A DNA stretch of 64,000 bases from Hyphomicrobiaceae bacterium (GTDB lineage Bacteria; Pseudomonadota; Alphaproteobacteria; Rhizobiales; Hyphomicrobiaceae), in the NCBI GenBank assembly GCA_022842785.1, contig JALHOW010000001.1:124001-188000 (forward strand), given 5' to 3'. The notes beneath the pieces are model-generated. The model worked only from the letters and a program-made list of their open reading frames with translations. It searched no databases and had not been told where the DNA came from. A program made the position numbers and the translations under genes. Positions 7,499-55,944 of this stretch are shown here, in pieces (position 1 is the stretch's first letter; each line of letters begins with the position of its first letter).

Positions 7499-7502
7499 CC
7501 GC

Positions 7503-8585
<1,083 letters not shown>

Positions 8586-8598
8586 TTTTTGCTTACTT

Positions 8599-8915
8599 GC
8601 CGCGGGCTGCTGGGAAGGGGCGCTTCGCAACCACTCCGTTGTGCTATGCCCGCGGCGGCCATGCGGACAGCGATCATGTGCGGCTCGCCACTCCCCCGCC
8701 CCCATTCCTTCAATGAGGAGAGGGCCGGGGTGAGGGGCGGTGGCACACGCAAACGTCGGCGCTTGGCGCCGCCCCTCATCCTAACCTTCTCCCCGTGTAG
8801 GACGGGGAGAAGGGATCTGTAGCATTCGCGGCTCGTTCCAAATCCATAAAGGGAAGGGGGTTCGGGGTCTCCCCGAGCGGTGTGGGCGGCAGCCCACTCG
8901 CGCTGAAGGCGCGAA
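8599..8915 (+). repeat. Composite dispersed repeat, copy 1 (modules B-C-A)
   Basis: About 317 bp of non-coding DNA homologous, module for module, to the reverse complement of 19207-19523. Module B (8599-8656) is a hairpin with perfect 9-bp arms GCCGCGGGC/GCCCGCGGC enclosing GCTGCTGGGAAG and GTTGTGCTAT. Module C (about 8695-8815) carries two inverted GAGGGGCGG/CCGCCCCTC-type blocks and a CTCCCC/GGGGAG stem. Module A (about 8825-8915) has TCCAAATCCATAAAG, a GGGG/CCCC stem, a GGGC/GCCC stem and a terminal TCGCGC/GCGCGA hairpin. It starts 14 bases after ugpC, next to a T-rich stretch. Confidence 0.8.
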
Positions 8916-9304
8916 TACAAGACTGGACGCACGCCAAATCACCGGTCGCGCTTCCGCGCCGGGCTCTATCGCTTGAAGGGGACGGGGCGGCGGCACCAGT
9001 CCGATGGGAAGAAAATGAGCGGCGCCTGCCGCCCCGCTTTGCCGCTCGCTTTCTCCACCTGCCAGACCGGTCGGTTCCGGCTCGCGCACGTGCGTCGCGT
9101 ACGGAGGCAGCAGGCCGGAGGCTTGGCTCCGGGAGCGGGCACATGCGGTGCGCTTCGGACGCCTCCGGAAGGGCCCCCTTGGTACCGCATGTGGTCGCGA
9201 CCATACGGCCGCCCGCGCGTGCGGGGACAAATGCTGCAATTCGCAACCTGTCCGCATGGCGCTCAGCAGCCCGCGGCAACGCGCTCCGCGCCGTCGCTAT
9301 GGCC
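8916..9304. other. Non-coding, repeat-degraded intergenic stretch
   Basis: No gene is convincing here: open frames on both strands encode Arg/Pro/Ala-rich peptides with no ribosome site. It contains fragments related to the repeats, including CAGCAGCCCGCGGC at about 9267-9280 (right arm of module B) and several short GC-rich hairpins. It looks like accumulated decayed repeat copies between ugpC and the SDR gene. Confidence 0.6.
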
Positions 9305-9386
9305 GCCGCGGGCATTCTCCTGGCGCGCCTCCGGCGCGACGCACCACCGCAGGAAGCGGTAGCACCTCTTCCCAGCAGCCCGCGGC
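9305..9386 (-). repeat. Module B repeat, copy 2, with internal hairpin insert
   Basis: Arms GCCGCGGGC (9305-9313) and GCCCGCGGC (9378-9386) are the same perfect 9-bp arms as in copy 1, in opposite orientation, with the conserved CACCTCTTCCCAGCA next to the right arm. The interior differs from other copies: the TAGCACAAC block is replaced by a longer segment holding a GCGCGC-CTCCG-GCGCG hairpin like that ending module A. With copy 1 it forms an inverted pair flanking 8599-9386. Confidence 0.72.
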
Positions 9387-9464
9387 ACTTAGACCAAAAT
9401 TGCATCTCGGCGCAGGAAGTGGTGAATTGCCGGCTGAACCGGCACTCCCCATCTCGGAGATCGA

Positions 9465-10235
9465 ATGTCACCCACCAACTTCTCGCTCGCTGGCCGCACC
9501 GCGCTCGTCACGGGCGCCTCCTCTGGTCTCGGCGAGCACTTCGCAACAGTTCTGGCTGCAGCCGGCGCCAAGGTCGTCGTCGCGGCGCGGCGCACGGATC
9601 GCCTCGAAGCTCTCAAGGCGCGCATCACGACAGCCGGCGGCACGGCGCACGCCGTGGCCATGGACGTCACGGATCGTGGTGATGTGGAGCGCGCGTTTGC
9701 GGAGGGAGAAGTCGCGCTCGGGCCGATCGCGATTTGCGTTAACAATGCCGGCATCACCGATCCCGCGTGGTTCACGCGCATGCGTGAGGATCAGTGGCGC
9801 AAGATCATGGATGTGAACCTCGACGGCGTATTCCACGTCGGGCAGGAGGCCGCGCGGCGCATGGTGGCTGCCGGCAAGGGCGGCTCGATCATCAACATCT
9901 CCTCGATCGTCGGTCTCGGCGCGATCAAGACGCTTTCCGCCTACTCCGCATCGAAGGCCGCTGTCATCGCGCTGACGCGCAACATGGCGCTGGAACTCGC
10001 GCGCGACCGCATTCGCGTCAACGCGATCGCCCCCGGCTACATCGCGACGGAGCTCAATGACGAGTTCTGGGATACGGAGCCCGGCAAACGCATGATCGCG
10101 CACGTGCCCATGCGCCGCCTCGGCTCTCTCGGTGAATTGGACGGCCCGCTGCTGCTGCTGGCCTCGGACGCGGGCTCCTTCATGACCGGGAGCGTGCTGA
10201 CCGTAGATGGCGGCCACCTCCTGCCGACCGAATGA
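9465..10235 (+). CDS. SDR family NAD(P)-dependent oxidoreductase
   Basis: This 256-residue classical short-chain dehydrogenase has the cofactor motif T-G-A-S-S-G-L-G (16-23), N-N-A-G (93-96), and the catalytic Ser about 146, Tyr160 and Lys164 (Y-S-A-S-K). R42-R43 after the second strand suggests NADP(H) preference. The substrate is unknown. It shares a four-base ATGA overlap with the phosphotransferase-like gene downstream, and DUF6285 follows in the same manner. Such SDR and phosphotransferase pairs often sit in acyl-CoA or fatty-acid catabolic operons, so a hydroxyacyl or short-chain alcohol substrate is plausible inference. Confidence 0.88.
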   Translation: MSPTNFSLAGRTALVTGASSGLGEHFATVLAAAGAKVVVAARRTDRLEALKARITTAGGTAHAVAMDVTDRGDVERAFAEGEVALGPIAICVNNAGITDPAWFTRMREDQWRKIMDVNLDGVFHVGQEAARRMVAAGKGGSIINISSIVGLGAIKTLSAYSASKAAVIALTRNMALELARDRIRVNAIAPGYIATELNDEFWDTEPGKRMIAHVPMRRLGSLGELDGPLLLLASDAGSFMTGSVLTVDGGHLLPTE

Positions 10236-11299
10236 CCATGGCATCAAGCTCCCGCTCGCGCACGCTCGACCCAGCCAATCTCGATCCACTGCAGCGCTGG
10301 CTCGCGCGAGCGGTGGAGGCCGATCGCGTAGAGATCACGCGCGCCGATCTTCTCTCCGGTGGTGCCGTCCAGGAAAACTGGCGTATCGACGCGAGCATCC
10401 ATGGCGGCTCGCGCGCCGGCCAGAATGCGCTGGTTCTGCGCACGGATGCCATCGCGCGGCTCCCCATGAGCCTCGATCGTCCACGCGAGTTCGCTTGCAT
10501 CAAGGCTGCGCACAGTGCCGGCGTTCTCGTTGCCGAGCCGATCGCGGAATGCGCGGACAAAACCGTCATCGGCGCGCCCTTCACGGTGCAGCGGTTGCTG
10601 TCCGGTACGGCTCAGGGGCGGCGCATCACGCGCGATCCCAAGCTCGGCGAGTTCGGTCCTGCGCTCGCGCGCGAGATTGGGGCGCAGCTCGCGCGCATTC
10701 ATACGATCCGGCCGCCGCACGAGGCGCTGGCCTTCCTGACGCGGCCCGAACCCGATGCGGTCGCTGCTGCAGTTGCCGAGATGCGTGGTGCACTCGACAA
10801 GGCGACCGAGCCGCGTCCTGCACTCGAATGCGTGCTCTCCTGGCTGCTCGCACACAAGCCGGCGCCGCGTCCGGTCTCGCTCGTGCACGGTGATTTCCGC
10901 ACAGGCAACTATCTCGTCGACGGAGGACGCCTCACGGGCATTCTCGACTGGGAGTTCTGTCACTGGGGTGATCCGCGCGAGGATCTCGGCTGGTTCTGCG
11001 CGCGCTGCTGGCGCTTCGGCAATGACGCGCTGGCTGCCGGCGGTATCGCGACACGCGCCGATCTGCTCGACGGCTACAACAGCGTGTCGGATGCGCCGAT
11101 TGCGGAGAGCGAACTCGCCTTCTGGGAGATCCTCGGCGCTGCCCGCTGGGCTGCGATCGCGCTTCTGCAGGGGCAGCGTTTTCTCACCGGCGGCGAGCGT
11201 TCGCTGGAACTCGCTCTCACTGGCCTCATGCCGGCCGAGATGGAGTTCGACGCACTCGAAGCCATTACCGCGCTCGAAGCGGGGAGACCCATCGCATGA
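10232..11299 (+). CDS. Phosphotransferase family protein (APH/choline-kinase fold)
   Basis: The 355-residue protein has the aminoglycoside-phosphotransferase fold: Brenner-type loop H219-G-D221-F-x-x-x-N226, then metal-binding I-L-D239-W240-E-F-C-H-W-G-D-P and the C-terminal D-L-G-W-F helix. Many members of this clade sit beside acyl-CoA dehydrogenases and may phosphorylate a hydroxy-acid or hydroxyacyl substrate rather than an antibiotic; the substrate here is unknown. Translation is coupled to the SDR upstream (ATGA) and the DUF6285 gene downstream (overlap 11296-11299). A second ATG at 10238 is also possible. Confidence 0.85.
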   Translation: MTMASSSRSRTLDPANLDPLQRWLARAVEADRVEITRADLLSGGAVQENWRIDASIHGGSRAGQNALVLRTDAIARLPMSLDRPREFACIKAAHSAGVLVAEPIAECADKTVIGAPFTVQRLLSGTAQGRRITRDPKLGEFGPALAREIGAQLARIHTIRPPHEALAFLTRPEPDAVAAAVAEMRGALDKATEPRPALECVLSWLLAHKPAPRPVSLVHGDFRTGNYLVDGGRLTGILDWEFCHWGDPREDLGWFCARCWRFGNDALAAGGIATRADLLDGYNSVSDAPIAESELAFWEILGAARWAAIALLQGQRFLTGGERSLELALTGLMPAEMEFDALEAITALEAGRPIA

Positions 11300-11655
11300 C
11301 CGCACGCCGCATCGATGCCGATGCTCTGCTCGATCTCGCAACTGAAATGCTCCGCGCGGATGTGCTGCCAGCGCTGCCACCCGAGCAACGCTACGCCGGC
11401 GCCATGATCGCCAATGCGCTGGAAGTAGCCCGCCGCGCACTCGCCGAGGAAGTCGAGGCCGCTGAGTGGACGCTGCTCGACAGTCTCTACGAGGAAGGCG
11501 AAGGTTCCACGGCGCAGCTCGCGCGCGACATTCGCTCAGGCACGCTGCCCGAAGGCAAGGCGCGCGGCTTGGCCGATGATTTGCGCACCCTGCTCATCGC
11601 CGAGCTGCGCGTCAGGAACCCGCGCTTTCTCGCATCGCGCGGTATCTCGGGTTGA
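11296..11655 (+). CDS. DUF6285 domain protein
   Basis: A 119-residue, mostly helical, acidic protein. Its N-terminal R-P/I-D-A-D-A-L-L-D-L-A pattern and the Y-A-G-A-M-I-A-N-A-L-E-V-A-R-R block match DUF6285 proteins as I recall them, which are typically encoded directly after APH-like phosphotransferases. No catalytic motif is evident. The four-base overlap with the upstream gene and the recurrent pairing suggest it is a partner or regulatory subunit of that kinase; this is inference. Confidence 0.75.
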   Translation: MTARRIDADALLDLATEMLRADVLPALPPEQRYAGAMIANALEVARRALAEEVEAAEWTLLDSLYEEGEGSTAQLARDIRSGTLPEGKARGLADDLRTLLIAELRVRNPRFLASRGISG

Positions 11656-11669
11656 AACTGGAGGCGGAC

Positions 11670-12083
11670 ATGACGGAAGCAGAATTGAAGTCGGCCTTCG
11701 CGGCATTCCGCGCCGAGTTCGAGAAGGCAATCGCCTCGCAGCTCGAGGGTAATTCCGAACCGTTCAAGGCACTGTGGTCGCACAAGCCCGATAGCATGAT
11801 CTTCGGCGCGCAGGGCGGCATGGAGAAGGGGTGGCCCGAAGTCGGTAACCGTCTCGACTGGGTCACGGGCAGGGTGCGCGCACGGCTGACAAGTCTCGAG
11901 AATGTCTCGACGGCGATGCACGGCACCATGGCCATGACTGCGGATTTCGAGCACATGATCCGCAGCCTCGATGGCTGCGAGTTCGAGCGCACATTGCGTG
12001 TGACGCAGGCCTATCGCTTCGAGGACGGCGCGTGGAGGATCTTCTATCGCCACGGCGACGAGTATTTCCCGTCCGGGCGTTGA
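11670..12083 (+). CDS. SnoaL/DUF4440-like (NTF2-fold) protein
   Basis: A 137-residue single-domain protein. The N-terminal helices (E-A-E-L-K-S-A-F...), the aromatic pocket segment W-S-H-K-P-D-S-M-I-F-G-A-Q-G-G and the C-terminal R-V-T-Q-A-Y-R-F-E-D-G-A-W-R-I-F-Y-R-H-G-D strand pattern are those of NTF2-like SnoaL proteins. Ligand and function are unknown. GGAGG at 11660-11664 places the start at ATG 11670. It follows DUF6285 by 14 bases and may belong to the same operon. Confidence 0.78.
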   Translation: MTEAELKSAFAAFRAEFEKAIASQLEGNSEPFKALWSHKPDSMIFGAQGGMEKGWPEVGNRLDWVTGRVRARLTSLENVSTAMHGTMAMTADFEHMIRSLDGCEFERTLRVTQAYRFEDGAWRIFYRHGDEYFPSGR

Positions 12084-12157
12084 GCGCTGGCTGGTCCGCC
12101 AGCAGAACGCGCGGAGTTTCGCAAGGAACCGATCGTCTGCGTTGCGCGTTTCTAGTG

Positions 12158-12388
12158 ATGCAGCCAAATCTGACAACGATAGAACGCGCCTTCCAGCTTG
12201 CGGAAGCGCGGAAATGTTCGACGATCGAAGAGCTTCGTAAGGCTCTTGGCGCCGAGGGATATTCCCCGAACCAGATCACGGGCCGCGCGCTGACCAAGCA
12301 GCTGCGTGATTTGATGAAGGGTGGGAATGAAAAGGCCCCCAAGCGCGATGGAAAGCTGGCGGGGGCTGATCCAACCGGAGAAAGCTAA
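12158..12388 (+). CDS. Small conserved-looking protein, unknown function
   Basis: A 76-residue protein starting MQPNLTTIERAFQLAEARK. It looks like one small helical domain (T-I-E-E-L-R-K-A-L-G-A-E-G-Y-S-P-N-Q-I-T-G-R-A-L) with a basic hydrophilic tail. The shape recalls small DNA-binding or adaptor domains, and similar short frames with F-Q-L-A...I-R-x-x-L...E-G-Y occur in other alphaproteobacteria, but I cannot name the family. The ribosome site is poor; a GTG at 12155 is an alternative start. Its 3' end overlaps the convergent epimerase gene by four bases. Confidence 0.65.
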   Translation: MQPNLTTIERAFQLAEARKCSTIEELRKALGAEGYSPNQITGRALTKQLRDLMKGGNEKAPKRDGKLAGADPTGES

Positions 12389-13356
12389 CCCCACAGCTCC
12401 CGCACGGGCGACTGCACGCGCGAGTCCGGGTAGATCAGCCCGTGCGGTCGATCTTTGGCGAGCAGTAGCGGCCCATCGAGATCGGCCCAATCGGCGGACT
12501 GAGCGACGAGCGTCGCTGGCGCCATGGCCAGTGACGTTCCGAGCATGCACCCGACCATGATCTTGAAACCGAGACGACGTGCTTCAGCTGACATCGTGAG
12601 CGCGCCGGTCAATCCGCCGGTCTTGTCGAGCTTGATGTTCACAGCATCGTAGCGGTCGCGCAGTGCCGCGAGCCCGTCGGCCGTGTGGGCAGACTCGTCG
12701 GCGCATACGGGTATAGGACGCCGTATATGCGCGAGCGCGCCGTCATTGTCGGCGTGCAGCGGCTGCTCGATCAGCTCGAATCCGGCCTCGGCGGCGACCG
12801 CGAGTAGCATCTCCAACTCATCGGGTTTCCAGGCCTCGTTGGCATCGGCGACGAGCCGCGCGTCTGGGCGCGCAGCGCGGATCGCACGCATGCGCTCAGC
12901 GTCCGCATCGCCACCACCGAGCTTGATCTTGAGAAGCGAGTGCTGCAGCGCTTGGCTTGCGCGCTTGGCCATCATCTCCGGCGTATCGAGGCTCAGCGTG
13001 TAGCAGGTGAGCGGCGGCTGATAAGGACCGAGGCCAGCCAGCTCCCACGCGCGACGGCCGACGCTCTTCGCCTCGATATCCCAGAGTGCACAGTCGATGG
13101 CGTTGCGCGCGGCGCCGGGCGGCAGCGCATTGGCAAGGGCCTCGCGCGATGTGATCGCGCCTACGTTCTCGATTGCCGCGACAACATCTTCGACCGTTTC
13201 GCCATAGCGCGCATAGGGCACGCACTCACCGCGTCCGAGGATGCCGTCACGTCGCGCTTCAACAAGCACGACGACCGCTTCTGTGCGCGCACCTCGCGAG
13301 ATGGTGAAGGCGCCGTCGATGGGCCAGCGTTCGACTTTTGCGCTCAGTGCTATCAT
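12385..13356 (-). CDS. Enolase-superfamily dipeptide/N-acyl amino acid epimerase
   Basis: This 323-residue enzyme belongs to the muconate-lactonizing branch of the enolase superfamily. It has a capping domain, then a barrel with the K-I-K lysine motif, metal ligands in A-D-A-N (Asp), I-E-Q-P (Glu) and C-A-D-E-S (Asp), and the opposite lysine in N-I-K-L-D-K. The pattern fits L-Ala-D/L-Glu epimerase or the related N-acyl-Glu racemase annotated in rhizobia. Racemising peptidoglycan dipeptides is the likely role; exact specificity cannot be read. ATG 13356 (MIALSAKVERW) is preferred over upstream starts at 13362 and 13383. Confidence 0.85.
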   Translation of the reverse strand: MIALSAKVERWPIDGAFTISRGARTEAVVVLVEARRDGILGRGECVPYARYGETVEDVVAAIENVGAITSREALANALPPGAARNAIDCALWDIEAKSVGRRAWELAGLGPYQPPLTCYTLSLDTPEMMAKRASQALQHSLLKIKLGGGDADAERMRAIRAARPDARLVADANEAWKPDELEMLLAVAAEAGFELIEQPLHADNDGALAHIRRPIPVCADESAHTADGLAALRDRYDAVNIKLDKTGGLTGALTMSAEARRLGFKIMVGCMLGTSLAMAPATLVAQSADWADLDGPLLLAKDRPHGLIYPDSRVQSPVRELWG

Positions 13357-45996: not shown

Positions 45997-46932
45997 TCAG
46001 GTGCGCCGCCGCTTTGATCGCGAAGCGGCGGCGAGAGATGCCGGCTCGCCCTTCGCAGCGCTTGGGAATGACGCAGTTGTGCGCACGACGTCCAGAAACG
46101 CCCTGATGAGGCGGCTGTGCGCGCGCTCGCGAAGATAGACGACATGCGCAGCCGTAAAGATTTCCGCATCGGAGATGCGCACGAGGCGCAATCGGGCGTC
46201 CGGGATGAATTCGGCCTCTGAGACGTAGCCAATGCCAATGCCGTGCATGACCGCCTCGCGGATGGCTTCGCGGCTGCCGATCTCGATGATTGTGCGCAGC
46301 TTGATGCCCCGATCCGCTGCAGCCGCCTCGAAAGCACGGCGCGTCGTCGAGCCCTGCTCCCGTGCAACAAAAGGCTCGTCCGCCAGCTCTTCCATGCGCA
46401 CGTTCTTGCGCCGCGCGAGCCTGTGATCGGCGGACATGAAGACCAGTACGGGATGGCGACGGTAAGGGATGGCGATGATGCGCTCGTCGGCATCGATGTG
46501 CGCAAGCACGGCGATATCGGACTTGTAGTCCAGCAGATCGCGCTGCACGGCCGATGAATTGCCGATCGACATGCTGAGCGTGATGCCAGGATAGCGCTGA
46601 TTGAAAGCGGCCAGCATCTCGGTGACGTGATAGGGACCGACGGCGCCGATGCGCAGTTGGCCTGTGCGTAGCCCTTTTGTTGCCGCCAGGAACTCGCGCG
46701 CCTCTTTCTCTTCCGCAAACAGTCGCAGCGTGATGGCGTGAAGATCGCGGCCCGAAGGCGTCAACTCGCTACGCCGGTTCCGCCGATAGAACAGCTCGAC
46801 GCCGAACTCCGCCTCCAGCGCCTTGATCTGCGCCGTAAGTGTGGGCTGGCTCACGTTGAGGGAGGTCGCGCCGGCGATAAAACCACCGGAACTCGCCACG
46901 GCATGAAACGATCTGAGCTGTGTTAGATTCAT
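45997..46932 (-). CDS. LysR family regulator of the phosphonate cluster
   Basis: A 311-residue LysR protein beginning M-N-L-T-Q-L-R-S-F-H-A-V-A. The DNA-binding domain has L-N-V-S-Q-P-T-L-T-A-Q-I-K-A-L-E, followed by an effector domain. It resembles LysR proteins associated with aminoethylphosphonate catabolism, in my judgement. It is divergent from the iron alcohol dehydrogenase gene, the normal arrangement for a LysR activator and its target. A GTG six bases upstream (46938) is an alternative start. A perfect ATAGA-N5-TCTAT palindrome overlaps the start codon, hinting at autoregulation. No Pho box is visible. Confidence 0.88.
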   Translation of the reverse strand: MNLTQLRSFHAVASSGGFIAGATSLNVSQPTLTAQIKALEAEFGVELFYRRNRRSELTPSGRDLHAITLRLFAEEKEAREFLAATKGLRTGQLRIGAVGPYHVTEMLAAFNQRYPGITLSMSIGNSSAVQRDLLDYKSDIAVLAHIDADERIIAIPYRRHPVLVFMSADHRLARRKNVRMEELADEPFVAREQGSTTRRAFEAAAADRGIKLRTIIEIGSREAIREAVMHGIGIGYVSEAEFIPDARLRLVRISDAEIFTAAHVVYLRERAHSRLIRAFLDVVRTTASFPSAAKGEPASLAAASRSKRRRT

Positions 46933-46945
46933 AGACACAATCTAT
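46931..46945. promoter_or_regulatory. LysR-type operator candidate (T-N11-A palindrome)
   Basis: ATAGACACAATCTAT is a 15-bp perfect inverted repeat (ATAGA, five bases, TCTAT) fitting the LysR T-N11-A rule. It covers the first bases of the lysR gene and lies 140 bases before the divergent alcohol dehydrogenase gene; TATCGATA overlaps its right end. It is a plausible binding site for autoregulation and activation of the cluster. Confidence 0.5.
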
Positions 46946-47084
46946 CGATAACGGCGGAAAAATCAATTTGTCGCAGATGGGGCATGATGAGAGCCTGATC
47001 CGGCCAGCTACAAGGTCTCCGCGACCGACGGGTCCATAGAGCCCCGAGCAGGCATCCCTTCGTGGTGGGGACTGGGCGGAACGC

Positions 47085-48170
47085 ATGTGGGCCTACAGCA
47101 ATCCCGTCAGGATCGAGTTTGGTGCCGGTGCCGCCGGCAAACTCGGCAAGATCATCGGCCGTCGCCGTTGGGCTCTCGTCACGTACGACATGCCCGTCTT
47201 TCGCGGGATCGCCGCCAGCATTCAGGCCGAAGCAGGCCCGCCGTCGGTCGTCATCGACAACATCGTCACCAATCCGGATGTCAGGGATCTGGCACTTTCC
47301 TGCCGGCAGTTCGCTGCGGCGCCGTCGAAACCCGAGGTGATCGTCGCGCTCGGGGGCGGATCGATCATCGATGCTGCAAAAGTCGTCGCTGCTGCCCAGG
47401 GTGATTTCGCGCGCGTGATGAATGCGCTGACCGGCGGCGCGGCTCTGGATGGCTCTACCTTCACGCCCATCATCGCCGTGCCGTCGACAGCAGGAACCGG
47501 CAGCGAAGTCACCTCCTGGGCCACCGTGTGGGACCAGGAGAGCGGCAACAAGTACTCGCTCGCCCACGGCGCGCTCTATCCCGAGGTCGCCATTGTCGAT
47601 CCTCAGCTCACGCTCGGCGCACCGCAGGGACTGACGCTCGCGACCGGTCTCGATGCGCTTTCGCACGCGCTCGAGAGCATATGGAACGTGAGCGCGAACC
47701 CGATCTCGTCCAATCATGCCGTCGCCGCCGCGCGCGAGATCCTGGACGTGCTCCCCAAGCTGATGAAGGATCTCGGTAACGCTGAGTTGCGCGAGCGCCA
47801 GGCGCGTGCTGCCCTGATGGCGGGGCTCGCCTTCTCGAATACAAAGACCGCGCTTGCTCACAATATCTCGTACGACATCACACTGCACGCGGGCACGGTG
47901 CACGGTATCGCGTGCTCGTTCTCGCTGCCGACGGTCATGCGCTGGTCTCTGGGCCGTAGCGCTGCTTGCGACGCGACGCTGCGGCGCATTCTCGGCGATG
48001 ATCTCACGGTTGGCGCAGAACGATTGACGGCATTCCTGGAAGGGCTCGGCGTGTCGACCCGTCCTTCATCTTACGGACTGTCCCCGGCGGACTGGCGGGC
48101 CCTCGTCACGAAGGCCTCGCAGGGTGAGAGGGGGCGCAACTTCATCGGACGGCACGATCTGGCCGATTGA
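47085..48170 (+). CDS. Phosphonate-associated iron-containing alcohol dehydrogenase
   Basis: A 361-residue group III alcohol dehydrogenase starting MWAYSNPVRIEFGAG. The NAD-binding G-G-G-S-I-I-D lies at 90-96, and metal ligands D190, H194, H259 and H273 have the spacing of FucO. The H273-G-I-A-C-S-F-S-L-P segment is typical of the phosphonate-associated subgroup as I recall it (phosphonoacetaldehyde reductase-like). Next to phnA and phnY, it most likely interconverts 2-hydroxyethylphosphonate and phosphonoacetaldehyde; running in the oxidative direction it would feed PhnY. It ends 11 bases before phnA. Confidence 0.87.
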   Translation: MWAYSNPVRIEFGAGAAGKLGKIIGRRRWALVTYDMPVFRGIAASIQAEAGPPSVVIDNIVTNPDVRDLALSCRQFAAAPSKPEVIVALGGGSIIDAAKVVAAAQGDFARVMNALTGGAALDGSTFTPIIAVPSTAGTGSEVTSWATVWDQESGNKYSLAHGALYPEVAIVDPQLTLGAPQGLTLATGLDALSHALESIWNVSANPISSNHAVAAAREILDVLPKLMKDLGNAELRERQARAALMAGLAFSNTKTALAHNISYDITLHAGTVHGIACSFSLPTVMRWSLGRSAACDATLRRILGDDLTVGAERLTAFLEGLGVSTRPSSYGLSPADWRALVTKASQGERGRNFIGRHDLAD

Positions 48171-48181
48171 GGGGGAAGAGC

Positions 48182-49426
48182 ATGGCAACGAGCACGGAAC
48201 CTGTCGTCGTCAATGGCCGCACCTACCGGCGCCCAGGTGCGCCGACCGTCGTCATTTGCATCGACGGCTCCGAACCCGGCTATATCGAGCGCACCATCGA
48301 GGCTGGCGTCGCGCCGACGTTCGCGCGCTTCATGAAGACGGGCGCAAACCTCATCGCCGAGTGCGTCATTCCGAGCTTCACCAATCCCAACAATCTCTCG
48401 ATCATCACTGGCCGCCCGCCGGCCGTGCACGGCATCGCAGGCAACTTCTTCTACGATCCTGCCAGCGGCACCGAAGTGATGATGAACGACCCCAAGTTCA
48501 TGCGTGCGCCGACCATCCTCGCGGGCTTCCACGGCGCGGGCTGTAAGGTCGCGATGGTAACGGCCAAGGATAAGCTGCGCCTGCTGCTTTCGAACGGTCT
48601 CGACTATGCAAGCGGGCGCGCGATTGCCTTCTCCTCCGAGCGCGCCGACAAGGCGAACAAGGCTGATAATGGCATCGAAAATGTCACGCGCTTCGTCGGT
48701 ATGGAGGTGCCAGACGTCTACTCCGCTGCGCTCTCGGAGTTCGTCTTCGCAGCAGGCGTCAAGCTGGCCGAGACCTTCCGCCCGGATCTCATGTATCTCT
48801 CGACGACGGACTACATTCAGCACAAGTGTGCGCCCGGATCCAGCATCGCCAACGATTTCTACGCGATGATCGACGGCTATCTCGCGCGCCTCGATGCACT
48901 CGGCTGCACCATCGTCGCGACCGCCGACCATGGCATGAACGACAAGCATCTCGCCGACAAAACGCCCGACGTCCTCTACCTTGAGCCGCTATTTGAAGGC
49001 TGGATCGGCGCGGAGAAGGCACGCGTCATCCTGCCGATCACTGATCCTTACGTCGTGCATCACGGTGCGCTCGGCTCGTTCGCGACCGTTTACCTGCCGC
49101 AGGGCACGAATGTCGCCGAACTCATTTTGAAGCTCAAGTCAACGCCGGGCGCGGAGCGTGCGCTCACCCGTGCGGAAGCGTGCGCGGAGTTCGAGCTGCC
49201 GCCGGATCGTATCGGCGACATCGTCGTCATATCGACTCGGAACAAGACGCTCGGAACGGCGCCAGCCAAGCACGATCTCTCAGGCTTGACCGAGCCGCTG
49301 CGGTCGCACGGCGGCCTCACCGAGCAGCGTGTGCCCATGATCTCGAACCGCAAGATCAAGCTCACGCCGGGGCATCGCCTTCGCACGTTCGATGTATTCT
49401 CCGTCGCGCTCAACGACACGTATTGA
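48182..49426 (+). CDS. phnA: Phosphonoacetate hydrolase
   Basis: A 414-residue enzyme of the alkaline phosphatase superfamily that splits phosphonoacetate into acetate and phosphate using two zinc ions. The expected catalytic set is visible: D28, nucleophile T67 (S-F-T-N-P-N-N), D210, H214 (T-T-D-Y-I-Q-H-K), D249, H250 (A-D-H-G-M-N-D) and H376 (S-H-G-G-L-T-E). From memory these match S. meliloti PhnA (29, 68, 211, 215, 250, 251, 377) with a constant shift of one. GGGGGAAGAGC precedes the ATG. phnY follows after nine bases. Confidence 0.95.
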   Translation: MATSTEPVVVNGRTYRRPGAPTVVICIDGSEPGYIERTIEAGVAPTFARFMKTGANLIAECVIPSFTNPNNLSIITGRPPAVHGIAGNFFYDPASGTEVMMNDPKFMRAPTILAGFHGAGCKVAMVTAKDKLRLLLSNGLDYASGRAIAFSSERADKANKADNGIENVTRFVGMEVPDVYSAALSEFVFAAGVKLAETFRPDLMYLSTTDYIQHKCAPGSSIANDFYAMIDGYLARLDALGCTIVATADHGMNDKHLADKTPDVLYLEPLFEGWIGAEKARVILPITDPYVVHHGALGSFATVYLPQGTNVAELILKLKSTPGAERALTRAEACAEFELPPDRIGDIVVISTRNKTLGTAPAKHDLSGLTEPLRSHGGLTEQRVPMISNRKIKLTPGHRLRTFDVFSVALNDTY

Positions 49427-49435
49427 GGTGCAGAC

Positions 49436-50887
49436 ATGACCATCATGCCGAAACTCCCCGCCCGCTCCGAAGCCATGCGCATCGCTGGCAAGCGCGTCAC
49501 GACCGACGACGTCATCGAGGTGCGCAATCCCTACGACAAATCGCTCGTCGGCACCGTGCCGATGGCCCGCCCAGAGCACGTGCGCGAGGCGTTCGCCAAG
49601 GCCAAGGCCTACAAGCCGAAGCTCTCACGCTACGAGCGTCAGCAGATCCTGCTGAAGACGGCCGATATTCTCGCCGCGCGCCGCGAAGAGTTCGCGAAGC
49701 TCATCTCGGCGGAGTCGGGCCTTTGCTGGAAGGACGCCATCTACGAGGCGACGCGCGCTTATGACGTGTGGTCCTTTGCTGGCCAGCTCTCGATCCGCGA
49801 CGATGGCGAGCAGTTCTCCTGCGACATCTCTCCCAATGGCAAGGCGCGCAAGATCTTCACGACGCGCGTGCCGCTGCTCGGTGTGATCTCGGCCATCACG
49901 CCCTTCAATCATCCTCTCAACATGGTGAGCCACAAGCTCGCGCCAGCCATCGCGACCAACAACCGCCTTGTGCTGAAGCCGACCGAGCTGACGCCTCTGA
50001 CGGCGCTCGCGCTCGCCGATGTGATCTACGAGGCGGGGCTGCCGCCCGAGATGCTGTCCGTGGTGACGGGCAATCCCGGGACCATGGGCGACTCCATGAT
50101 CACCGATCCCGACTGCGATCTGATCACCTTCACGGGGTCCGTGCGCGTCGGCAAGTACATCGCGGAGAAGGCCGGCTACCGTCGCCTCGTGCTCGAGCTC
50201 GGCGGAAACGATCCGCTGATCGTCATGGAGGATGCCGACCTCGACAAGGCCGCCGAGCTGGCCGTTCAGGGCGCGACCAAGAACTCGGGCCAGCGCTGCA
50301 CAGCGGTGAAACGCATACTCGTCGTGGAGTCCGTAGCAGACGCATTCTCGAAGCTGGTCGTCGAGAAGGCGAAGAAGATCAAGTTCGGCAATCCGGCCGA
50401 TTCTTCCATCGATGTCGGGACCGTCATTCACGAGCGTGCGGCGAAGCTATTCGAGGAGCGCGTAAACAGCGCCGTAGCGGAGGGCGCCAAGGTTCTCTAT
50501 GGCGCCAAGCGTGAGGGCGCGCTCTTTCCGCCGACCGTAGTCGACCACATTCCCTATATGGCCGAGCTCGTGCACGAGGAGACGTTCGGGCCGGTCATCC
50601 CGATCATTCGCGTGCCCGACAACATCGACGATGTCATTCGCATCTCGAACTCGACGGCTTACGGGCTGTCGTCGGGCGTCTGCACCAACCGTCTCGACTA
50701 CATCACGCGCTTCATCGCCGAACTCGACGTCGGCACCGTGAACATCTGGGAAGTGCCGGGCTATCGCATCGAGATGTCGCCCTTCGGCGGCATCAAGGAT
50801 TCGGGCCTCGGCTACAAGGAAGGTGTGTGGGAAGCCATGAAGAGCTTCACCAACGTGCGCACGTACTCGCTCCCCTGGAGCGCGTGA
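49436..50887 (+). CDS. phnY: Phosphonoacetaldehyde dehydrogenase
   Basis: A 483-residue aldehyde dehydrogenase that oxidises phosphonoacetaldehyde to phosphonoacetate with NAD+. It has N159 in P-F-N-H-P, general base E254, and R287-C288 in G-Q-R-C-T-A-V-K-R. Arginines 107, 287 and 444 line up with the phosphonate-binding arginines reported for S. meliloti PhnY (108, 290, 447), which sets it apart from ordinary ALDHs. The gene follows phnA closely. The TRAP genes start 134 bases later, and no terminator is visible between them. Confidence 0.93.
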
Positions 50888-51021
50888 GCGCATTGCGTAT
50901 CGTCAGACAGTCGGAGATCTCGAGCACGAAATCCTGAGCAAAACCGTCCAGAGCCGCCAACGAAGGCGGTCAGAAGACGGATCGGAAACAAGCAGAAGCA
51001 GCACCAGGAGGAAACCGAAAG

Positions 51022-52125
51022 ATGCTACGCCGAAGCTTTCTGATGGCGGCCGGAGCCGCCTTTGCCGTCGTCGCCATGGCAGCCGCACCTGCGCTCGCTC
51101 AGCAGGGACAGTTCAAGTGGAAGCTGCAGAGCGCGAACCCGACGGGGACGCCCCACGACGTGCTTCTGAAGACACTCGCGACGAACGTCGACAAGATGTC
51201 GGCCGGGCGCCTCAAGATCGAGATCATGCCGAGCGGCGCGGTCGTCAATCCCAACGAGATCCTCGACGCCGTGAACAAGGGACTCGTCGATGCAGGCCAG
51301 TGGTGGACTCACTACGCCATCGGCAAGCATCCCGCGGGCGGCCTGTTCAGCGCGCCGCTCGGCGGCTCCGCGAGTGGGCTCGATCAGAACTCGCATATTG
51401 CCTGGTATTTGAAGGGCGGCGGCCGCGATCTCTACATCGAATACTACACGAAGATGCTGCGCGCGGACGTCATGCCGTTCCTCTACGCCCCAGATGGCCC
51501 CGAGGCGCTCGGCTGGTTCAAGAAGCCGGTCACGTCGGTCGAGGATTTCAAGAAGCTGCGTTTCCGTATTTCATCCGGCTTGCCGAGCCAGGTGCTCAAG
51601 GAACTCGGCGGCGTTCCGATGAATCTCGCGGCTGCTGAGCTCATTCCGGCAGCCGAGCGCGGCGTCATCGATGGCGTCGAGTGGATCAATCCTGCGAACG
51701 ACCTCAAAGTTGGCCTGCAGGATGTTTTCAAGTTCTACTCGATCCAGGGATTGCATCAGGCGATCGATATTGCCGACATCGTCATCAATGGCAAGAAGTG
51801 GCGCGAGCTACCGCCGGACCTCCAGGCTATCGTCGAAGTCGCCATGATGGCCTCGCTCTACGAGGCACAGATCTACTTCATCCACGAGAACGCCAAGGCG
51901 CTGCAGGAGTTGCAGGCCAAGGGCGTGACGATGTTCGATGCGCCGGCCGACTATGCACCGGCGTGGATTGCGGCATCGAAGAAAGTTCTGGGGCAGCTCG
52001 AGGAGAAGAACGAGTTCTTCAAGAAAGTCCTCGATTCACAGCGTGCCTTCGCGAAGGTCGTCGTGCCCTACACGCGCGAGACCTCGAAACTCTCGACGCT
52101 GATCGCGGGCGCTGCTGCTCAGTAG
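51022..52125 (+). CDS. TRAP transporter substrate-binding protein (DctP family)
   Basis: A 367-residue periplasmic binding protein with a signal peptide (R-R-S-F-L-M-A-A-G-A-A, ending A-L-A-Q). The DctP fold shows in W-K-L-Q-S-A-N-P-T-G-T-P, M-S-A-G-R-L-K-I-E-I-M-P-S-G-A-V-V, and the ligand-binding R-F-R-I-S-S-G and E-L-I-P-A-A-E-R-G-V-I-D-G-V-E-W. DctP proteins bind a carboxylate or similar anion through a conserved arginine, so an anionic phosphonate fits. Placement after phnA-phnY suggests it captures the phosphonate substrate. CAGGAGGAAACC precedes the ATG. Confidence 0.9.
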   Translation: MLRRSFLMAAGAAFAVVAMAAAPALAQQGQFKWKLQSANPTGTPHDVLLKTLATNVDKMSAGRLKIEIMPSGAVVNPNEILDAVNKGLVDAGQWWTHYAIGKHPAGGLFSAPLGGSASGLDQNSHIAWYLKGGGRDLYIEYYTKMLRADVMPFLYAPDGPEALGWFKKPVTSVEDFKKLRFRISSGLPSQVLKELGGVPMNLAAAELIPAAERGVIDGVEWINPANDLKVGLQDVFKFYSIQGLHQAIDIADIVINGKKWRELPPDLQAIVEVAMMASLYEAQIYFIHENAKALQELQAKGVTMFDAPADYAPAWIAASKKVLGQLEEKNEFFKKVLDSQRAFAKVVVPYTRETSKLSTLIAGAAAQ

Positions 52126-52136
52126 CGCGCCGGACA

Positions 52137-52181
52137 TCATGACATCCCGGGGCCCGCACGAACGGGCTCCGGTTCCCATGA
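52137..52181 (+). terminator. Intercistronic hairpin between dctP and dctQ genes
   Basis: CCGG/GGCCCG (52147-52156) pairs with CGGGCT/CCGG (52163-52172) over CACGAA, and TCATG (52137-52141) with CATGA (52177-52181) at the base. It starts 11 bases after the dctP stop and lacks a T-tract. It probably limits readthrough or stabilises dctP mRNA. Confidence 0.65.
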
Positions 52182-52249
52182 CAGATTGTTTGCCTGTCGC
52201 TACCGGTCGCCAAGGCGCGCTTCGGGAGCGAAGGAGAAGGGCAGCGCTC

Positions 52250-52786
52250 ATGAATGCCGTCGATCGCGTGACCCATGTCATCGACCAGATCAGCATCTGG
52301 ACGGGCAAGACCGTCGCCTGGCTGATCTTTCCGATGTTCGGAGTCCTGGTCTTCGAGGTACTCGTTCGTAAGCTTTATCAGCCGACGATCTGGGCGAACG
52401 ACGTAGCTACGATGGCGTACGGGGCGCACTTCTCGCTTGCTGCCGCCTATGCGCTCAGCCTGCAGAAGCACATCCGCACGGACTTCCTCACGCAATACCT
52501 CTCGCTGCGTGCGCAGCTCTGGCTGGATATCGTGCAGTACGTCGTGTTCTTCCTGCCGGGCATGATGATGTTCCTGTGGCTCAGCTGGGAGTTCGCGGAG
52601 GAATCCTGGTTCTTCCGGGAAGAGCTCATCACGTCGTGGCGTCCGCCCGCCTACTGGTACAAGACCGTCATTCCGGTCACGGCCGCGCTTCTTCTCCTGC
52701 AAGGCATCGCCGAGGTTTTGAAGTGCTTCCGAGCGCTGCAGACCGGCGTCGACTACCGCAAGGTCGAGCCGACCGAGGTCACCTGA
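52250..52786 (+). CDS. TRAP transporter small permease (DctQ family)
   Basis: A 178-residue membrane protein with four hydrophobic helices, the topology of DctQ. It has R-K-L-Y-x-P-T-I-W-A-N-D-V-A-T near the second helix, a DctQ hallmark, and K-H-I-R-T-D-F-L in the loop. It pairs with the large permease at 52837. The frame is open further upstream, but AAGGAGAAGGG before ATG 52250 fixes the start. Confidence 0.88.
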   Translation: MNAVDRVTHVIDQISIWTGKTVAWLIFPMFGVLVFEVLVRKLYQPTIWANDVATMAYGAHFSLAAAYALSLQKHIRTDFLTQYLSLRAQLWLDIVQYVVFFLPGMMMFLWLSWEFAEESWFFREELITSWRPPAYWYKTVIPVTAALLLLQGIAEVLKCFRALQTGVDYRKVEPTEVT

Positions 52787-52836
52787 ATGACCTCGCGCCC
52801 GCCCTTTGGTGAAACAGGCATTCCCGAGTGCAATCC

Positions 52837-54153
52837 ATGAGCCTCGAAGTCCTCGGCCTCGTCTTGATCGGTATCCTGTTCCTGGTGATCCTGGCGGGCT
52901 TTCCGATCTCCTTCACACTGTTCTTCCTGGGTATGGCCTTCGGCTACTACGGGCTCGGGGATCGCGTCTTTCACCTCATGACCTACCAGTACTTCTCCAC
53001 CATGATGGAGACGGTGCTGGCAGCGGTCGCGCTCTTCACGTTCATGGGGTACGTGCTTGAAAGCTCGGGCCTCATGGGCCGGCTCTTCCATGCCATTCAG
53101 CTCGCCTTCGGTCGCCGTCACGGCTCGCTCTACATCGCCACGATCTTCACAGCGACGCTGTTCGCCGCTGCCACAGGGATCGTCGGCGCTTCGGTCGCCA
53201 TCATCGGACTGATGGCCGGCCCGATCATGCTGAAACGCGGCTACGATCCGGCGCTCTCAGCGGGGACGATCACGGCCGGCGGCACCCTCGGCATTCTGCT
53301 CCCGCCGAGCGTGATGCTGGTCGTCATGGGACCGTCGTTCCAAGTATCGATCGCCCGGCTCTACGCCGCCGCCATCATTCCCGGCCTGCTGCTGTCGTTC
53401 CTGTATCTGGCCTATACGCTCGGCCGCACGTGGCTGAGGCCGCAGCTCGGTCCGCCCCTGCCGCCCGAAGAGCTGAACGTCGCCAAGGGCTATATCTTCA
53501 AGGAACTCGTCCTCGGATTTCTCCCGCCTACGTTCCTCATCCTCCTGACGCTCGGCGCGATCATTTCCGGCTGGGCGACGCCCACAGAGGGTGCAGCGCT
53601 CGGTTGCGTGGGCGCGATCGTCATCACGGGCCTCAACGGCCAGCTCACCTTTGCCGTGATGAAGGATGCCGCCTTCCGCACGGCCCAGACCACGGCGATG
53701 GTCATGATCCTGCTCGCCGCGTCGACATTCATGGGGTCGGTATTCTCGGCTTTCGGCACGCCGAAATTCCTGGCCGATACGATCCTGGCCTGGGACATCC
53801 CCGCCGGTCTGCTCATCGTGAGCATTCTGGCGGTCTGCTTCCTCCTCGGGTGGCCCCTGGAGTGGGTGCCGATCGTGGTGATTATCGTTCCGATCTTCCT
53901 GCCGCTGCTCCAGGGCCTGCAGATCGACATGCTCTGGTTCAGCATTCTGGTGGCGGTCACGCTCCAGACCTGCTGGCTCTCACCGCCAGTCGCGCTATCG
54001 GCCTACTATTTGAAGGCCGTAGTGCCGTCGTGGGACCTCTGGCAGATCTATCGCGGCATGATGCCGTTCATGATCCTGCAGTGGATCTGCGTGCTGCTCA
54101 TATACTTCTTCCCGGATATTGCATTATTCCTGCCCAACCTTTGGTACAAATAG
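52837..54153 (+). CDS. TRAP transporter large permease (DctM family)
   Basis: A 438-residue permease with about 11-12 transmembrane helices, with A-G-F-P-I-S-F-T-L, G-I-V-G-A-S-V-A-I-I-G and L-G-I-L-L-P-P-S-V-M-L near the first half. The C terminus has L-Q-T-C-W-L-S-P-P-V-A-L-S-A-Y-Y-L-K. It carries the Na+-driven transport step. A GTG nine bases upstream (52828) is an alternative start. It is 63 bases before the Na/Pi gene, on the same strand, without a visible terminator. Confidence 0.92.
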   Translation: MSLEVLGLVLIGILFLVILAGFPISFTLFFLGMAFGYYGLGDRVFHLMTYQYFSTMMETVLAAVALFTFMGYVLESSGLMGRLFHAIQLAFGRRHGSLYIATIFTATLFAAATGIVGASVAIIGLMAGPIMLKRGYDPALSAGTITAGGTLGILLPPSVMLVVMGPSFQVSIARLYAAAIIPGLLLSFLYLAYTLGRTWLRPQLGPPLPPEELNVAKGYIFKELVLGFLPPTFLILLTLGAIISGWATPTEGAALGCVGAIVITGLNGQLTFAVMKDAAFRTAQTTAMVMILLAASTFMGSVFSAFGTPKFLADTILAWDIPAGLLIVSILAVCFLLGWPLEWVPIVVIIVPIFLPLLQGLQIDMLWFSILVAVTLQTCWLSPPVALSAYYLKAVVPSWDLWQIYRGMMPFMILQWICVLLIYFFPDIALFLPNLWYK

Positions 54154-54216
54154 CTGAGGAGAGTCGGGTGGCGTGCCTGAATTGGGCGCGCTGCCGATGG
54201 TCCTGGAGGTGCCTAT

Positions 54217-55944
54217 ATGGAAGGAAGCGGGCTGCTCATAACTCTCATGGGCGGCGTGGCCTTGCTCCTATGGAGCGTACGGATGGTGCGGACGGGGATG
54301 ACGCGCGCCTTCGGCGCCTCCCTGCGTCTGCTGATCAGCAAGGCCTGCGCGAACCGCTTCAAGGCTTTTGCCACCGGCGTCGGCGTCACCGGCGTTCTTC
54401 AAAGCGCGACGGCCACGGCCCTGCTGCTGGCCTCATTTGCGAGCCGCAAACTCGTCACGCTCCCGCTCGCACTGGCGCTCATGCTCGGCGCCGACGTTGG
54501 CACGGCGCTCGTCACGCAGATCTACGCCTTCGACATCAAGTGGATCTGGGCCGGACTGCTGTTCCTCGGCGTCATCCTCTTCAATGCCTCCGAGAAGGAC
54601 GAGGTGCGCGGGACGGGACGCGTCCTGATCGGCTTCGGTTTGATGCTGCTCGGCCTCACCATCATCGGCCAGGTGTCCACCCAGCTGCGCGACAGTCAGA
54701 TCCTGCATCTCGTGCTGTCGTCGCTCGGCTCCGAGAAAATTCCGCTGTTGGCCGTCCTCGTCGCTGCCGCCATGACCTGGCTTGCGCATTCGAGCCTCGC
54801 CATTGTGCTGTTCATCATGTCGCTCGCGGGTGGCGGCGTGATCGACGGACGTCTTGCGGTCGCGCTCGTGCTCGGTGCGAACCTGGGTGGCGCGATCGTC
54901 CCCTATGTCGCGCTCTCGGGCTCGGCGCCTGCTGCGCGCCGCGTCGTACTCGGCAATCTGCTCATCCGGGCAGCGTGCGTTGTGGTCGCATTGCCCTTCG
55001 CAGCTGTGATTGCGGATACCCTGAGCGCCATCTCGTCCGACGCCGCACGCCTAGCCGTCAATTTCCATCTGGCCTTCAATCTCGTCCTGGCCGCGCTGGC
55101 CATGCCGTTTCTCGGATATGTGGCGGCGCTCGTCACGCGGCTGCTGCCGGATCCGGTTGCGAACCACGATCGCAGCACGCCACGCCACCTCGATCCGAGT
55201 GCGCTCGACACGCCGTCGGAAGCGCTCGCCTGTGCCATGCGCGAGACCCTGGTCATGGGTGACCTCGTGCTGGAGATGTTGAACCGATCACTGCCGGCCA
55301 TCGAGGGATCGGACATCAAGGCCGTGCGCGACGTCGAGCGCGCGGACAACGAGGTCGACGGACTGCACGAAGCCATCAAGCTCTATCTGATCCGCGCCTC
55401 GAAGGCCGACATGGGCCAGGAGGACAGCCGCCGCTATGTCGAGATCCTGACGTTCACCACGAACCTCGAGCACATCGGCGACATAATCGACAAGAACCTG
55501 ATGGAGCTTGCCGCGAAGAAGATCAAAAAGCGCTATGCCTTCTCGCCCGAAGGTGCCGCCGAGCTGCGCAAATTCCACGGCCAGGTCGTGGATCACATGC
55601 GCCTCGCGCTCAATGTGTTTGCGACGCGCGACGTGGCGCTCGCACGTCGGCTGCTGCGCGGGAAGACGACGGTGCGTACGGCCGAGTTCGAGGCGACCGA
55701 CCGACATTTCTCGCGGCTCAGGGAAGGGCGCTCGCAATCCATCGAGACGAGTTCGATCCATCTCGACATCATTCGCGACCTCAAGCGCATAAGCTCGCAC
55801 CTTACGTCGGTGGCCTATCCAATTCTCGAGGCGGTCGGGGAGCTCGCCCAGTCGCGGTTGCTGGACACCGCAGCTGCTGCTGGTAGCGATCCGGCGACGG
55901 CGCCTCAGGGCGAAGGCTTGCCCCATCCTGGCTCGGCCACCTGA
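54217..55944 (+). CDS. Na/Pi-cotransporter family protein with PhoU domain (YjbB-like)
   Basis: A 575-residue protein: two Na/Pi-cotransporter repeats (G-V-T-G-V-L-Q-S-A-T-A-T-A and T-W-L-A-H-S-S-L-A-I-V-L, the paired Q-S-S/T-type motifs) over about eight helices, then a C-terminal PhoU-like helical domain (from about 340) with E-H-I-G-D-I-I-D-K-N. This is the layout of E. coli YjbB, which exports phosphate. Behind phnA-phnY-TRAP, export of the phosphate set free by PhnA is the natural reading; import is the alternative. TGGAGG precedes the ATG. Confidence 0.9.
   Translation: MEGSGLLITLMGGVALLLWSVRMVRTGMTRAFGASLRLLISKACANRFKAFATGVGVTGVLQSATATALLLASFASRKLVTLPLALALMLGADVGTALVTQIYAFDIKWIWAGLLFLGVILFNASEKDEVRGTGRVLIGFGLMLLGLTIIGQVSTQLRDSQILHLVLSSLGSEKIPLLAVLVAAAMTWLAHSSLAIVLFIMSLAGGGVIDGRLAVALVLGANLGGAIVPYVALSGSAPAARRVVLGNLLIRAACVVVALPFAAVIADTLSAISSDAARLAVNFHLAFNLVLAALAMPFLGYVAALVTRLLPDPVANHDRSTPRHLDPSALDTPSEALACAMRETLVMGDLVLEMLNRSLPAIEGSDIKAVRDVERADNEVDGLHEAIKLYLIRASKADMGQEDSRRYVEILTFTTNLEHIGDIIDKNLMELAAKKIKKRYAFSPEGAAELRKFHGQVVDHMRLALNVFATRDVALARRLLRGKTTVRTAEFEATDRHFSRLREGRSQSIETSSIHLDIIRDLKRISSHLTSVAYPILEAVGELAQSRLLDTAAAAGSDPATAPQGEGLPHPGSAT

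Follow-up and report, generated by a model that had tools for sequence, protein, structure and literature searches.

What does a tripartite ATP-independent periplasmic (TRAP) transporter carry when its genes lie among those for phosphonate breakdown, and where might the phosphate released by such breakdown go? We approached this question through positions 45997-55944 of a 64,000-nt stretch of DNA, hereafter the window, from a Hyphomicrobiaceae bacterium (GCA_022842785.1, contig JALHOW010000001.1). In this locus a minus-strand LysR gene diverges from seven plus-strand genes, which encode an iron-containing alcohol dehydrogenase (Fe-ADH), PhnA, PhnY, the TRAP subunits DctP, DctQ and DctM, and a Na/Pi-PhoU protein. 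Comparison of these genes with those of other genomes leads us to regard the locus as a likely inducible operon for the use of 2-hydroxyethylphosphonate (HEP), which would probably supply carbon and energy.

In the route that we propose, DctPQM would import HEP, which the Fe-ADH, on the strength of its family assignment, may oxidise to phosphonoacetaldehyde. Going by what is known of their families, PhnY would oxidise phosphonoacetaldehyde to phosphonoacetate, and PhnA, in which the catalytic residues are present, would split the latter into acetate and phosphate. The Na/Pi-PhoU protein, given its linkage and its likeness to YjbB, would let out surplus phosphate, and the divergent LysR protein would activate the operon in response to the substrate or to a compound along the route. 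The features concerned are as follows (scores in bits against the family cut-off).

45997..46938, minus strand: LysR-type regulator (PF00126 and PF03466), probable true start 46932
46931..46945: candidate LysR-type dyad ATAGA-N5-TCTAT of the T-N11-A form, ATAGACACAATCTAT, overlapping the probable LysR start
47085..48170, plus strand: Fe-ADH, iron-containing alcohol dehydrogenase (TIGR03405 Phn_Fe-ADH, 440 bits, cut-off 424)
48182..49426, plus strand: PhnA, phosphonoacetate hydrolase (TIGR02335, 522 bits, cut-off 408; catalytic residues present)
49436..50887, plus strand: PhnY, phosphonoacetaldehyde dehydrogenase (TIGR03250, 810 bits, cut-off 636)
51022..52125, plus strand: DctP, TRAP substrate-binding protein of a phosphonate-linked clade (PF03480; clade support 100/99)
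52250..52786, plus strand: DctQ, TRAP small permease (PF04290, matched on the frame open from 52139, 52139-52786)
52828..54153, plus strand: DctM, TRAP large permease (PF06808)
54217..55944, plus strand: Na/Pi-cotransporter with PhoU domain (PF02690 and PF01895), recurring beside phnA, putative phosphate exporter

These coordinates and profile scores agree with the gene layout and family names of the initial annotation. The domains of DctP, DctQ and DctM all score over cut-off, so the TRAP set is complete, and the last protein has the Na/Pi and PhoU domain pair that marks YjbB-like proteins. From the Fe-ADH gene to the Na/Pi gene the intergenic gaps are 11, 9, 134, 124, 41 and 63 bases, taking dctQ from the ATG at 52250, which is most likely its start and gives a protein of 178 residues (orthologues have 178-179); the LysR gene probably starts at 46932 (MNLTQ), as it does in the related locus L151. 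A Tex gene upstream and an NnrS gene on the other strand downstream bound the unit. The seven PhnA residues initially listed as catalytic (D28, T67, D210, H214, D249, H250 and H376) lie at exactly those positions, and a near end-to-end alignment with the solved phosphonoacetate hydrolase 3szy, read by eye, has the identical letter at all seven. In the Fe-ADH, D190, H194, H259 and H273 fit what we take to be the metal ligands of such enzymes. The LysR protein falls outside the aminoethylphosphonate (AEP) LysR family, scoring 304 bits with its best phosphonate-type model, TIGR03339 phn_lysR, under the cut-off of 341.

Companions of the TRAP transporter

Orthologues of the TRAP transporter were found in 16 genomes, with DctP identities of 52-92%. 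Named by our handles for loci (L) and genomes (G), these are the window, L082 (=L125), L083, G744 (L126 and L151, an operon of the window's type split over two contigs), L084, L088, L170, L171, L068 (=L085), L062 (=L093), L091, L086, L087, L089, L090 and L092; duplicates were checked for identity, and the remainder of the L062 TRAP set is probably on L127. A phosphonate-type alcohol dehydrogenase lies on the DctP contig in 14 of the 16, the exceptions being G744 and L092; seven of these are TIGR03405 Fe-ADHs, and the other seven either have TIGR03366 HpnZ as their best family or are 95-100% like such a protein. PhnA or PhnX shares the DctP contig in nine genomes (window, L082, L083, L171, L068, L062, L091, L088 and L084, the last cut by a contig end), and the Na/Pi gene in five (window, L083, L171, and L082 and G744, where contig ends truncate it). 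The constant partner of the TRAP transporter would thus appear to be an alcohol dehydrogenase, with the hydrolase and even the type of dehydrogenase varying. The initial annotation had framed the cluster around phnA-phnY and left the substrate open; the linkage of TRAP and Na/Pi genes with phosphonate genes does hold in other genomes, and its recurrence rules out chance association, but the framing should be revised, since the comparison ties the TRAP transporter to the alcohol dehydrogenase instead.

The arrangement of the individual loci bears on the substrate. L082 and L083 repeat the window's operon at 84-97% identity per gene (the L083 contig begins inside the Fe-ADH gene and hence shows no LysR gene). 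Two betaproteobacterial metagenome-assembled genomes (MAGs) have a different hydrolase: L088 reads LysR / Fe-ADH-DctQ-DctM-DctP-PhnX, with PhnX over cut-off (TIGR01422, 230-231 bits, cut-off 220), and L084 has the same gene order up to the start of PhnX at the contig end, where the first 43 or so residues score 61 bits over 43 positions (cut-off 220) and are 60% identical to the L088 PhnX over 40 residues. PhnX and PhnY both take phosphonoacetaldehyde, the sole compound common to them, and phosphonoacetate would, by family, be of no use in loci with PhnX. That PhnYA is swapped for PhnX while the Fe-ADH and the TRAP transporter stay therefore points to phosphonoacetaldehyde as the shared intermediate and to HEP as the likeliest TRAP substrate, HEP being the simplest alcohol precursor of this aldehyde. 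L084 also holds, at 346-594 and upstream of its LysR gene, a short broken phnA remnant, suggesting that one carbon-phosphorus (C-P) hydrolase was replaced by another there.

L171 adds a second line of argument. Its operon reads LysR / Fe-ADH-DctQ-DctM-DctP-PhnA-PhnY-NaPi, and on the other side of the LysR gene lie an AEP-type importer of the ATP-binding cassette (ABC) kind (TIGR03261, 485 bits, cut-off 393) and PhnW (597 bits, cut-off 296); both of these AEP genes recur next to the L170 operon (PhnW 603 bits). Because these loci give AEP its own importer and transaminase, we read the TRAP transporter and Fe-ADH as a second entrance to the same trunk. Downstream in L170 lies a peptide-ABC-like system (by eye), and no hydrolase was seen in its 19.9 kb. 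L068, L062 and L091 carry a PhnA 48-49% identical to the window's and over cut-off (549, 556 and 528 bits); their alcohol dehydrogenase is an HpnZ-like zinc enzyme, and their aldehyde dehydrogenase is a different one. In the deltaproteobacterial MAGs L086, L087, L089 and L090 the HpnZ-like gene stands immediately 3' of DctM. Around the TRAP-HpnZ genes of two anaerobe MAGs (L087, 17245-20677; L089, 1789-9211) we also noted SauS-like acylating dehydrogenases under cut-off, HAD hydrolases and PhnW or PbfA, and in L089 citryl-CoA-lyase-like genes, which gives hints of a CoA-linked phosphonate route via phosphonoacetyl-CoA.

DctP proteins of at least 70% identity occur in only three of 385 genomes of the class (window, G122 and G044), each adjoining phnA, and the next group (at most 49%) lies in other contexts, the 14 loci fetched being devoid of PhnA, Fe-ADH, Na/Pi and PiT. 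When the genomes of 84,980 species were scanned by pattern, a procedure that can miss carriers, 14 loci emerged, 12 of them close relatives; the matches L094 and L095 (25-26%) were discarded as distant paralogues. In a phylum-wide draw of 398 genomes, with at most five candidates scored per genome, the window's genome was the sole DctP match at E 1e-100, which makes such systems seem rare. Plasmid records contained no match to DctP at E 1e-60. A 26-row tree unites 12 orthologues in one group against 14 paralogues with support of 100/99. These rows represent 12 of the 16 genomes (L062/L127, L090, L091 and L126 were left out as partial or repeated), and L092 and L139 are long branches, whose joins may be false.

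The relation between the alcohol dehydrogenase and the AEP entrance could be followed across phnA loci. PhnA exceeds its cut-off at E 1e-100 in 44 of the 385 class genomes, the window's included, and 46 loci were fetched from these, one being the second phnA of the window's own genome. PhnW is present in 26 of them (exceeding its cut-off in 25 and truncated by a contig end in L044) and a phosphonate-type alcohol dehydrogenase in six (L046, L062, L066, L068, L077 and L078), the two never occurring together (Fisher p 0.004, uncorrected for kinship, and with dehydrogenase thresholds of at least 41% for Fe-ADH and at least 59% for HpnZ chosen after the matches were seen). Left out of the count were the Fe-ADHs of L051, L065 and L067 (28-30%), whose best family is 4-hydroxybutyrate dehydrogenase, and the HpnZ matches of L070 (best family TIGR03366, 223 bits) and L072, at 31-34%; L065 and L067 have PhnW, and L070 and L072 do not. 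TRAP orthologues adjoin phnA in two of the six dehydrogenase loci, L068 and L062 (the latter cut by a contig end); the L068 dehydrogenase has TIGR03366 as its best family, below cut-off, and that of L062 is 95% like it. At L046 (8894-11574) a divergent PhnA is accompanied by a dehydrogenase of the HpnZ-like type (310 bits) and by a PhnD-like binding protein, so that the enzyme set is much like that of L068 with an ABC-type binding protein replacing the TRAP transporter.

The window's genome, which is 98.97% complete, has no PhnW (best 141 bits, cut-off 361; none in the cluster either), PhnX (52, cut-off 220) or phosphoenolpyruvate (PEP) mutase (136, cut-off 320) over cut-off, which makes AEP and home-made phosphonates unlikely sources there. 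It does encode the C-P lyase protein PhnJ elsewhere (G000:C1:294991-295803, 488 bits), which could already serve phosphorus needs; this fits, and does not prove, a carbon role for the operon. The second phnA of this genome (L081, 9000-10232, on G000:C5; 526 bits, 73% to the window's) has no phnY, PhnW or TRAP match beside it, and its surroundings resemble organic-acid catabolism by eye, with reductase-, acyl-CoA dehydrogenase- and GntR-like genes.

The phosphate transporter and the control region

A phosphate transporter gene is present in 11 of the 46 phnA loci (seven Na/Pi-PhoU, four PiT) and in none of 14 control loci (one-sided Fisher p 0.039, uncorrected for kinship). The control is a small, non-random convenience set of loci around DctP paralogues (L128-L141), covering 222,795 bases against 751,647 for the 46, which counts against our view of the gene, and one PiT query came from L066, itself among the 46. 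PiT is PF01384, with a DUF47 partner in both loci checked (L066 and L077). The PiT genes (L066, 5717-7420; L077, 11226-12871; L079; L080) are found close to phnA in loci that gave no Na/Pi match, as if an unrelated transporter had taken the place of Na/Pi. In L087, other genes separate PiT and DUF47 from DctP, which is about 6 kb downstream of them.

It is somewhat unlikely that the Na/Pi-PhoU protein instead imports phosphate, or that its gene is a neighbour without a role in the pathway. The Na/Pi family includes importers, sequence does not reveal direction, and the enrichment is modest, but two unrelated transporter families recur beside phnA and the Na/Pi gene closes the rearranged L171 operon at 40% identity to the window's. 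In addition, YjbB is described as a phosphate exporter (PMC11389368) and PMC8316502 mentions that phosphate is exported while AEP is being used, these papers, like the others cited below, being represented by extracts of their text. What had initially been called a phosphate exit therefore stands as a recurring association, and export is its presumed direction.

As initially observed, the cluster has no Pho box: with up to three mismatches to the consensus used, four matches fall in the 64 kb (3.7 expected) and none within the cluster. The pattern ATAG-N7-CTAT has a single match in the window (0.08 expected), which is the candidate dyad listed above. The two close relatives aligned, L082 and L151, retain its outer half-sites ATAG...CTAT. 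The two Burkholderiales loci aligned do not, and only an AATTTG-type stretch can be matched there. A promoter scan gave no promoter-like site and a terminator scan two terminator-like sites against 5.7 expected. The missing Pho box, the conserved dyad near the LysR start and the separate C-P lyase are consistent with the phosphate-independent, substrate-induced control suggested at the outset, and go no further than that.

Evidence against HEP and alternative readings

Several observations weigh against the HEP reading, and the first is that the Fe-ADH is not bound to the TRAP transporter. TIGR03405 matches at E 1e-100 occur in 12 of 349 genomes of the order of L088 (11 over cut-off). The TRAP transporter is present in three of these 12 loci (L088, L170 and L171), PhnA with PhnY in five (L168 and L171-L174), PhnX in three (L088, L175 and L176), and neither hydrolase in the stretch read of four (L169, L170, L177 and L178); a PhnD-like ABC binding protein takes the place of the TRAP transporter in L172-L176 and L178, those of L175 and L178 scoring over the PhnD cut-off. 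The Fe-ADH also occurs in six of the 60 nearest relatives of the window compared, three of which (L148-L150) have it with a LysR gene and a PhnD-like binding protein and with no TRAP, PhnA, PhnY or PhnX match. L066 and L077 have PhnD-like proteins too, that of L066 just under cut-off. The importer therefore seems exchangeable as well, and some Fe-ADH genes have no hydrolase gene next to them.

Nor is the TRAP transporter always found with an alcohol entrance alone, since L087 has a PhnW-type gene beside it (417 bits, cut-off 361) and L089 has PbfA (722 bits, cut-off 525) as well as a PhnA-like protein under cut-off (223 bits). No PhnA or PhnX match was found in the stretch read of L086, L087, L090 or L170. 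In the Clostridia MAG that holds L092, the locus (2557-12997) gave no match to Fe-ADH or HpnZ, and its 52%-identical TRAP set lies about 3.8 kb from a sulfonate-type glycyl-radical enzyme and its activase. Family assignments are in part short of their thresholds: only L066 of the six dehydrogenases in phnA loci exceeds a family cut-off (TIGR03405, 458 bits), with L077 at 377 and L078 at 385 against 424 and L046 at 310 against 328 for TIGR03366, and the full-length HpnZ-like proteins of L046, L068, L086, L087, L089 and L091, with TIGR03366 as best family, score 284-319 bits against the same 328. Many of the genomes compared are MAGs, and the structure prediction for DctP was poor (mean pLDDT 64.9) and was not used. 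Finally, the usual ligands of TRAP binding proteins are carboxylates, a group that HEP lacks, although some members are known to bind isethionate or glycerol phosphate. As a separate observation, another contig of the L086 genome (Desulfobacteraceae) encodes a PhnX that exceeds its cut-off (L158, G803:C189; 254 bits), so that the hydrolase not seen in the TRAP locus may be located there.

The preference for carboxylates also speaks for a different cargo, phosphonoacetate, with PhnA doing the work and the Fe-ADH and PhnY serving other compounds. Aligned to 2hzk, which we take to be the keto-acid binder TakP, R182, E220, W221 and E161 of DctP presumably lie at ligand-site positions. The arginine R182 and E220 are present in all 12 orthologues and all 14 paralogues and W221 in 11 of 12 and 14 of 14, which favours this cargo; E161 occupies the position of a glutamine in 2hzk. 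However, in L084 and L088 the TRAP transporter and Fe-ADH sit with PhnX, which by family acts on phosphonoacetaldehyde and not on phosphonoacetate, and the alcohol dehydrogenase accompanies the TRAP transporter in 14 of 16 genomes, and so we consider phosphonoacetate import improbable. A further 18 DctP residues are shared by all 12 orthologues and by none of the 14 paralogues, R135, D158 and N223 among them near the ligand region; these are leads for mutagenesis, not proof.

We give a similarly low weight to import of another hydroxyalkyl phosphonate (for example a dihydroxyethyl compound) or of (R)-1-hydroxy-2-aminoethylphosphonate (R-HAEP), or to a broad importer of C2 phosphonates and sulfonates. 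PbfA in L089 would suit this, as would the glycyl-radical enzyme of L092, which is of the isethionate or sulfopropanediol kind: its closest solved structures are 5ymr, which we take to be the isethionate lyase IseG, and 7kq3 (isethionate sulfite-lyase), and among NCBIfam models it scores best with the sulfopropanediol dehydratase HpsG. Isethionate corresponds to HEP with a sulfonate in place of the phosphonate group. Against it, the window's operon has neither PbfA nor PhnW, and HEP is the simplest alcohol that leads to the aldehyde used by both PhnX and PhnY. AEP itself was rejected as the TRAP substrate, given the lack of PhnW over cut-off in the genome and the separate AEP-type importers of L170 and L171. 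Weakest, and very improbable, is that the Fe-ADH runs in reverse to make HEP from phosphonoacetaldehyde, the TRAP transporter being incidental: such equilibria often favour reduction, and phpC of AEP operons has been read in this way (see below), but neither PhnW nor PEP mutase, which could provide the aldehyde, exceeds its cut-off in the window's genome, an importer and a C-P hydrolase share the operon, and the TRAP clade tracks the alcohol dehydrogenase.

HEP import and oxidation is therefore the reading that we carry forward. Taking the loci together, we would tentatively go further and see in this clade a first phosphonate-specific TRAP importer family, dedicated to HEP and serving a modular, C-P-lyase-independent route in Pseudomonadota, Thermodesulfobacteriota and Myxococcota, in which the alcohol dehydrogenase (Fe-ADH or HpnZ-like), the C-P hydrolase (PhnYA or PhnX) and the phosphate transporter are exchangeable. 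The family may have come from, or share an ancestor with, a sulfonate importer (for example for isethionate), of which the Clostridia locus would be a trace. If this is the case, HEP would be a carbon source used independently of phosphate hunger, with phosphate returned to the surroundings; TRAP transporters would gain a phosphonate substrate, and TIGR03405 and HpnZ-like dehydrogenases a named role.

Known systems

The locus most likely joins known enzymes of hydrolytic phosphonate pathways to a point of entry and an importer for which we found no description. In the extracts of a 2023 review (PMC10574752), phosphonate importers are described as ABC systems or symporters/antiporters, TRAP transporters being named only as other users of binding proteins; this supports the statement of the initial annotation that known importers are mainly of the ABC or major facilitator superfamily (MFS) type. 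That annotation had also called a TRAP transporter linked to phnA-phnY undescribed, and our full-text literature search, thin on subscription papers and covering parts of the texts, found no description of such a linkage or of any TRAP phosphonate importer.

The nearest pathways are PhnWAY and PhnWX for AEP, with AepXVW or AepP as importers, which likewise lead through phosphonoacetaldehyde to PhnY/PhnA or PhnX, are under LysR-type control and can operate independently of phosphate supply, going by the extracts of PMC8316502 and PMC10574752. The window differs in entering by an alcohol dehydrogenase and not PhnW, in using a TRAP transporter in place of an ABC or MFS importer, and in having a phosphate transporter gene in the operon. 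The Na/Pi-PhoU protein shares its domain families with YjbB, which is likened here by description, and differs from it in lying within a phosphonate operon. For YjbB, Na/Pi export is described in the portion of PMC11389368 at hand. Use of HEP through C-P lyase (PMC5649143, in part) has the same proposed substrate and frees phosphorus under phosphate limitation, giving ethylene, whereas the route proposed for the window would give acetate and phosphate.

Isethionate TRAP importers (IsePQM and IseKLM; extracts of PMC11668362 and PMC6453916) also carry a hydroxylated C2 compound whose acid group is tetrahedral, but the window's DctP is nearest to 2hzk (E 2.5e-39), with 4p47, given there as the nearest solved relative of IseP, at only 5e-10. 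PhpC-type phosphonoacetaldehyde reductases, again likened by description, are Fe-ADHs that link HEP and phosphonoacetaldehyde as the window's Fe-ADH is proposed to; the latter would work in the oxidative direction, in a breakdown operon and in a genome with no PEP mutase over cut-off. In the text available to us, phpC in AEP operons is proposed to make HEP from AEP (Lockwood et al. 2022, PMC9381506), and HEP oxidation to phosphonoacetaldehyde is mentioned as a less likely hypothesis for PbfF (PMC12366243). If the reading offered here is right, the Fe-ADHs of catabolic AEP operons, published as makers of HEP, would become its consumers.

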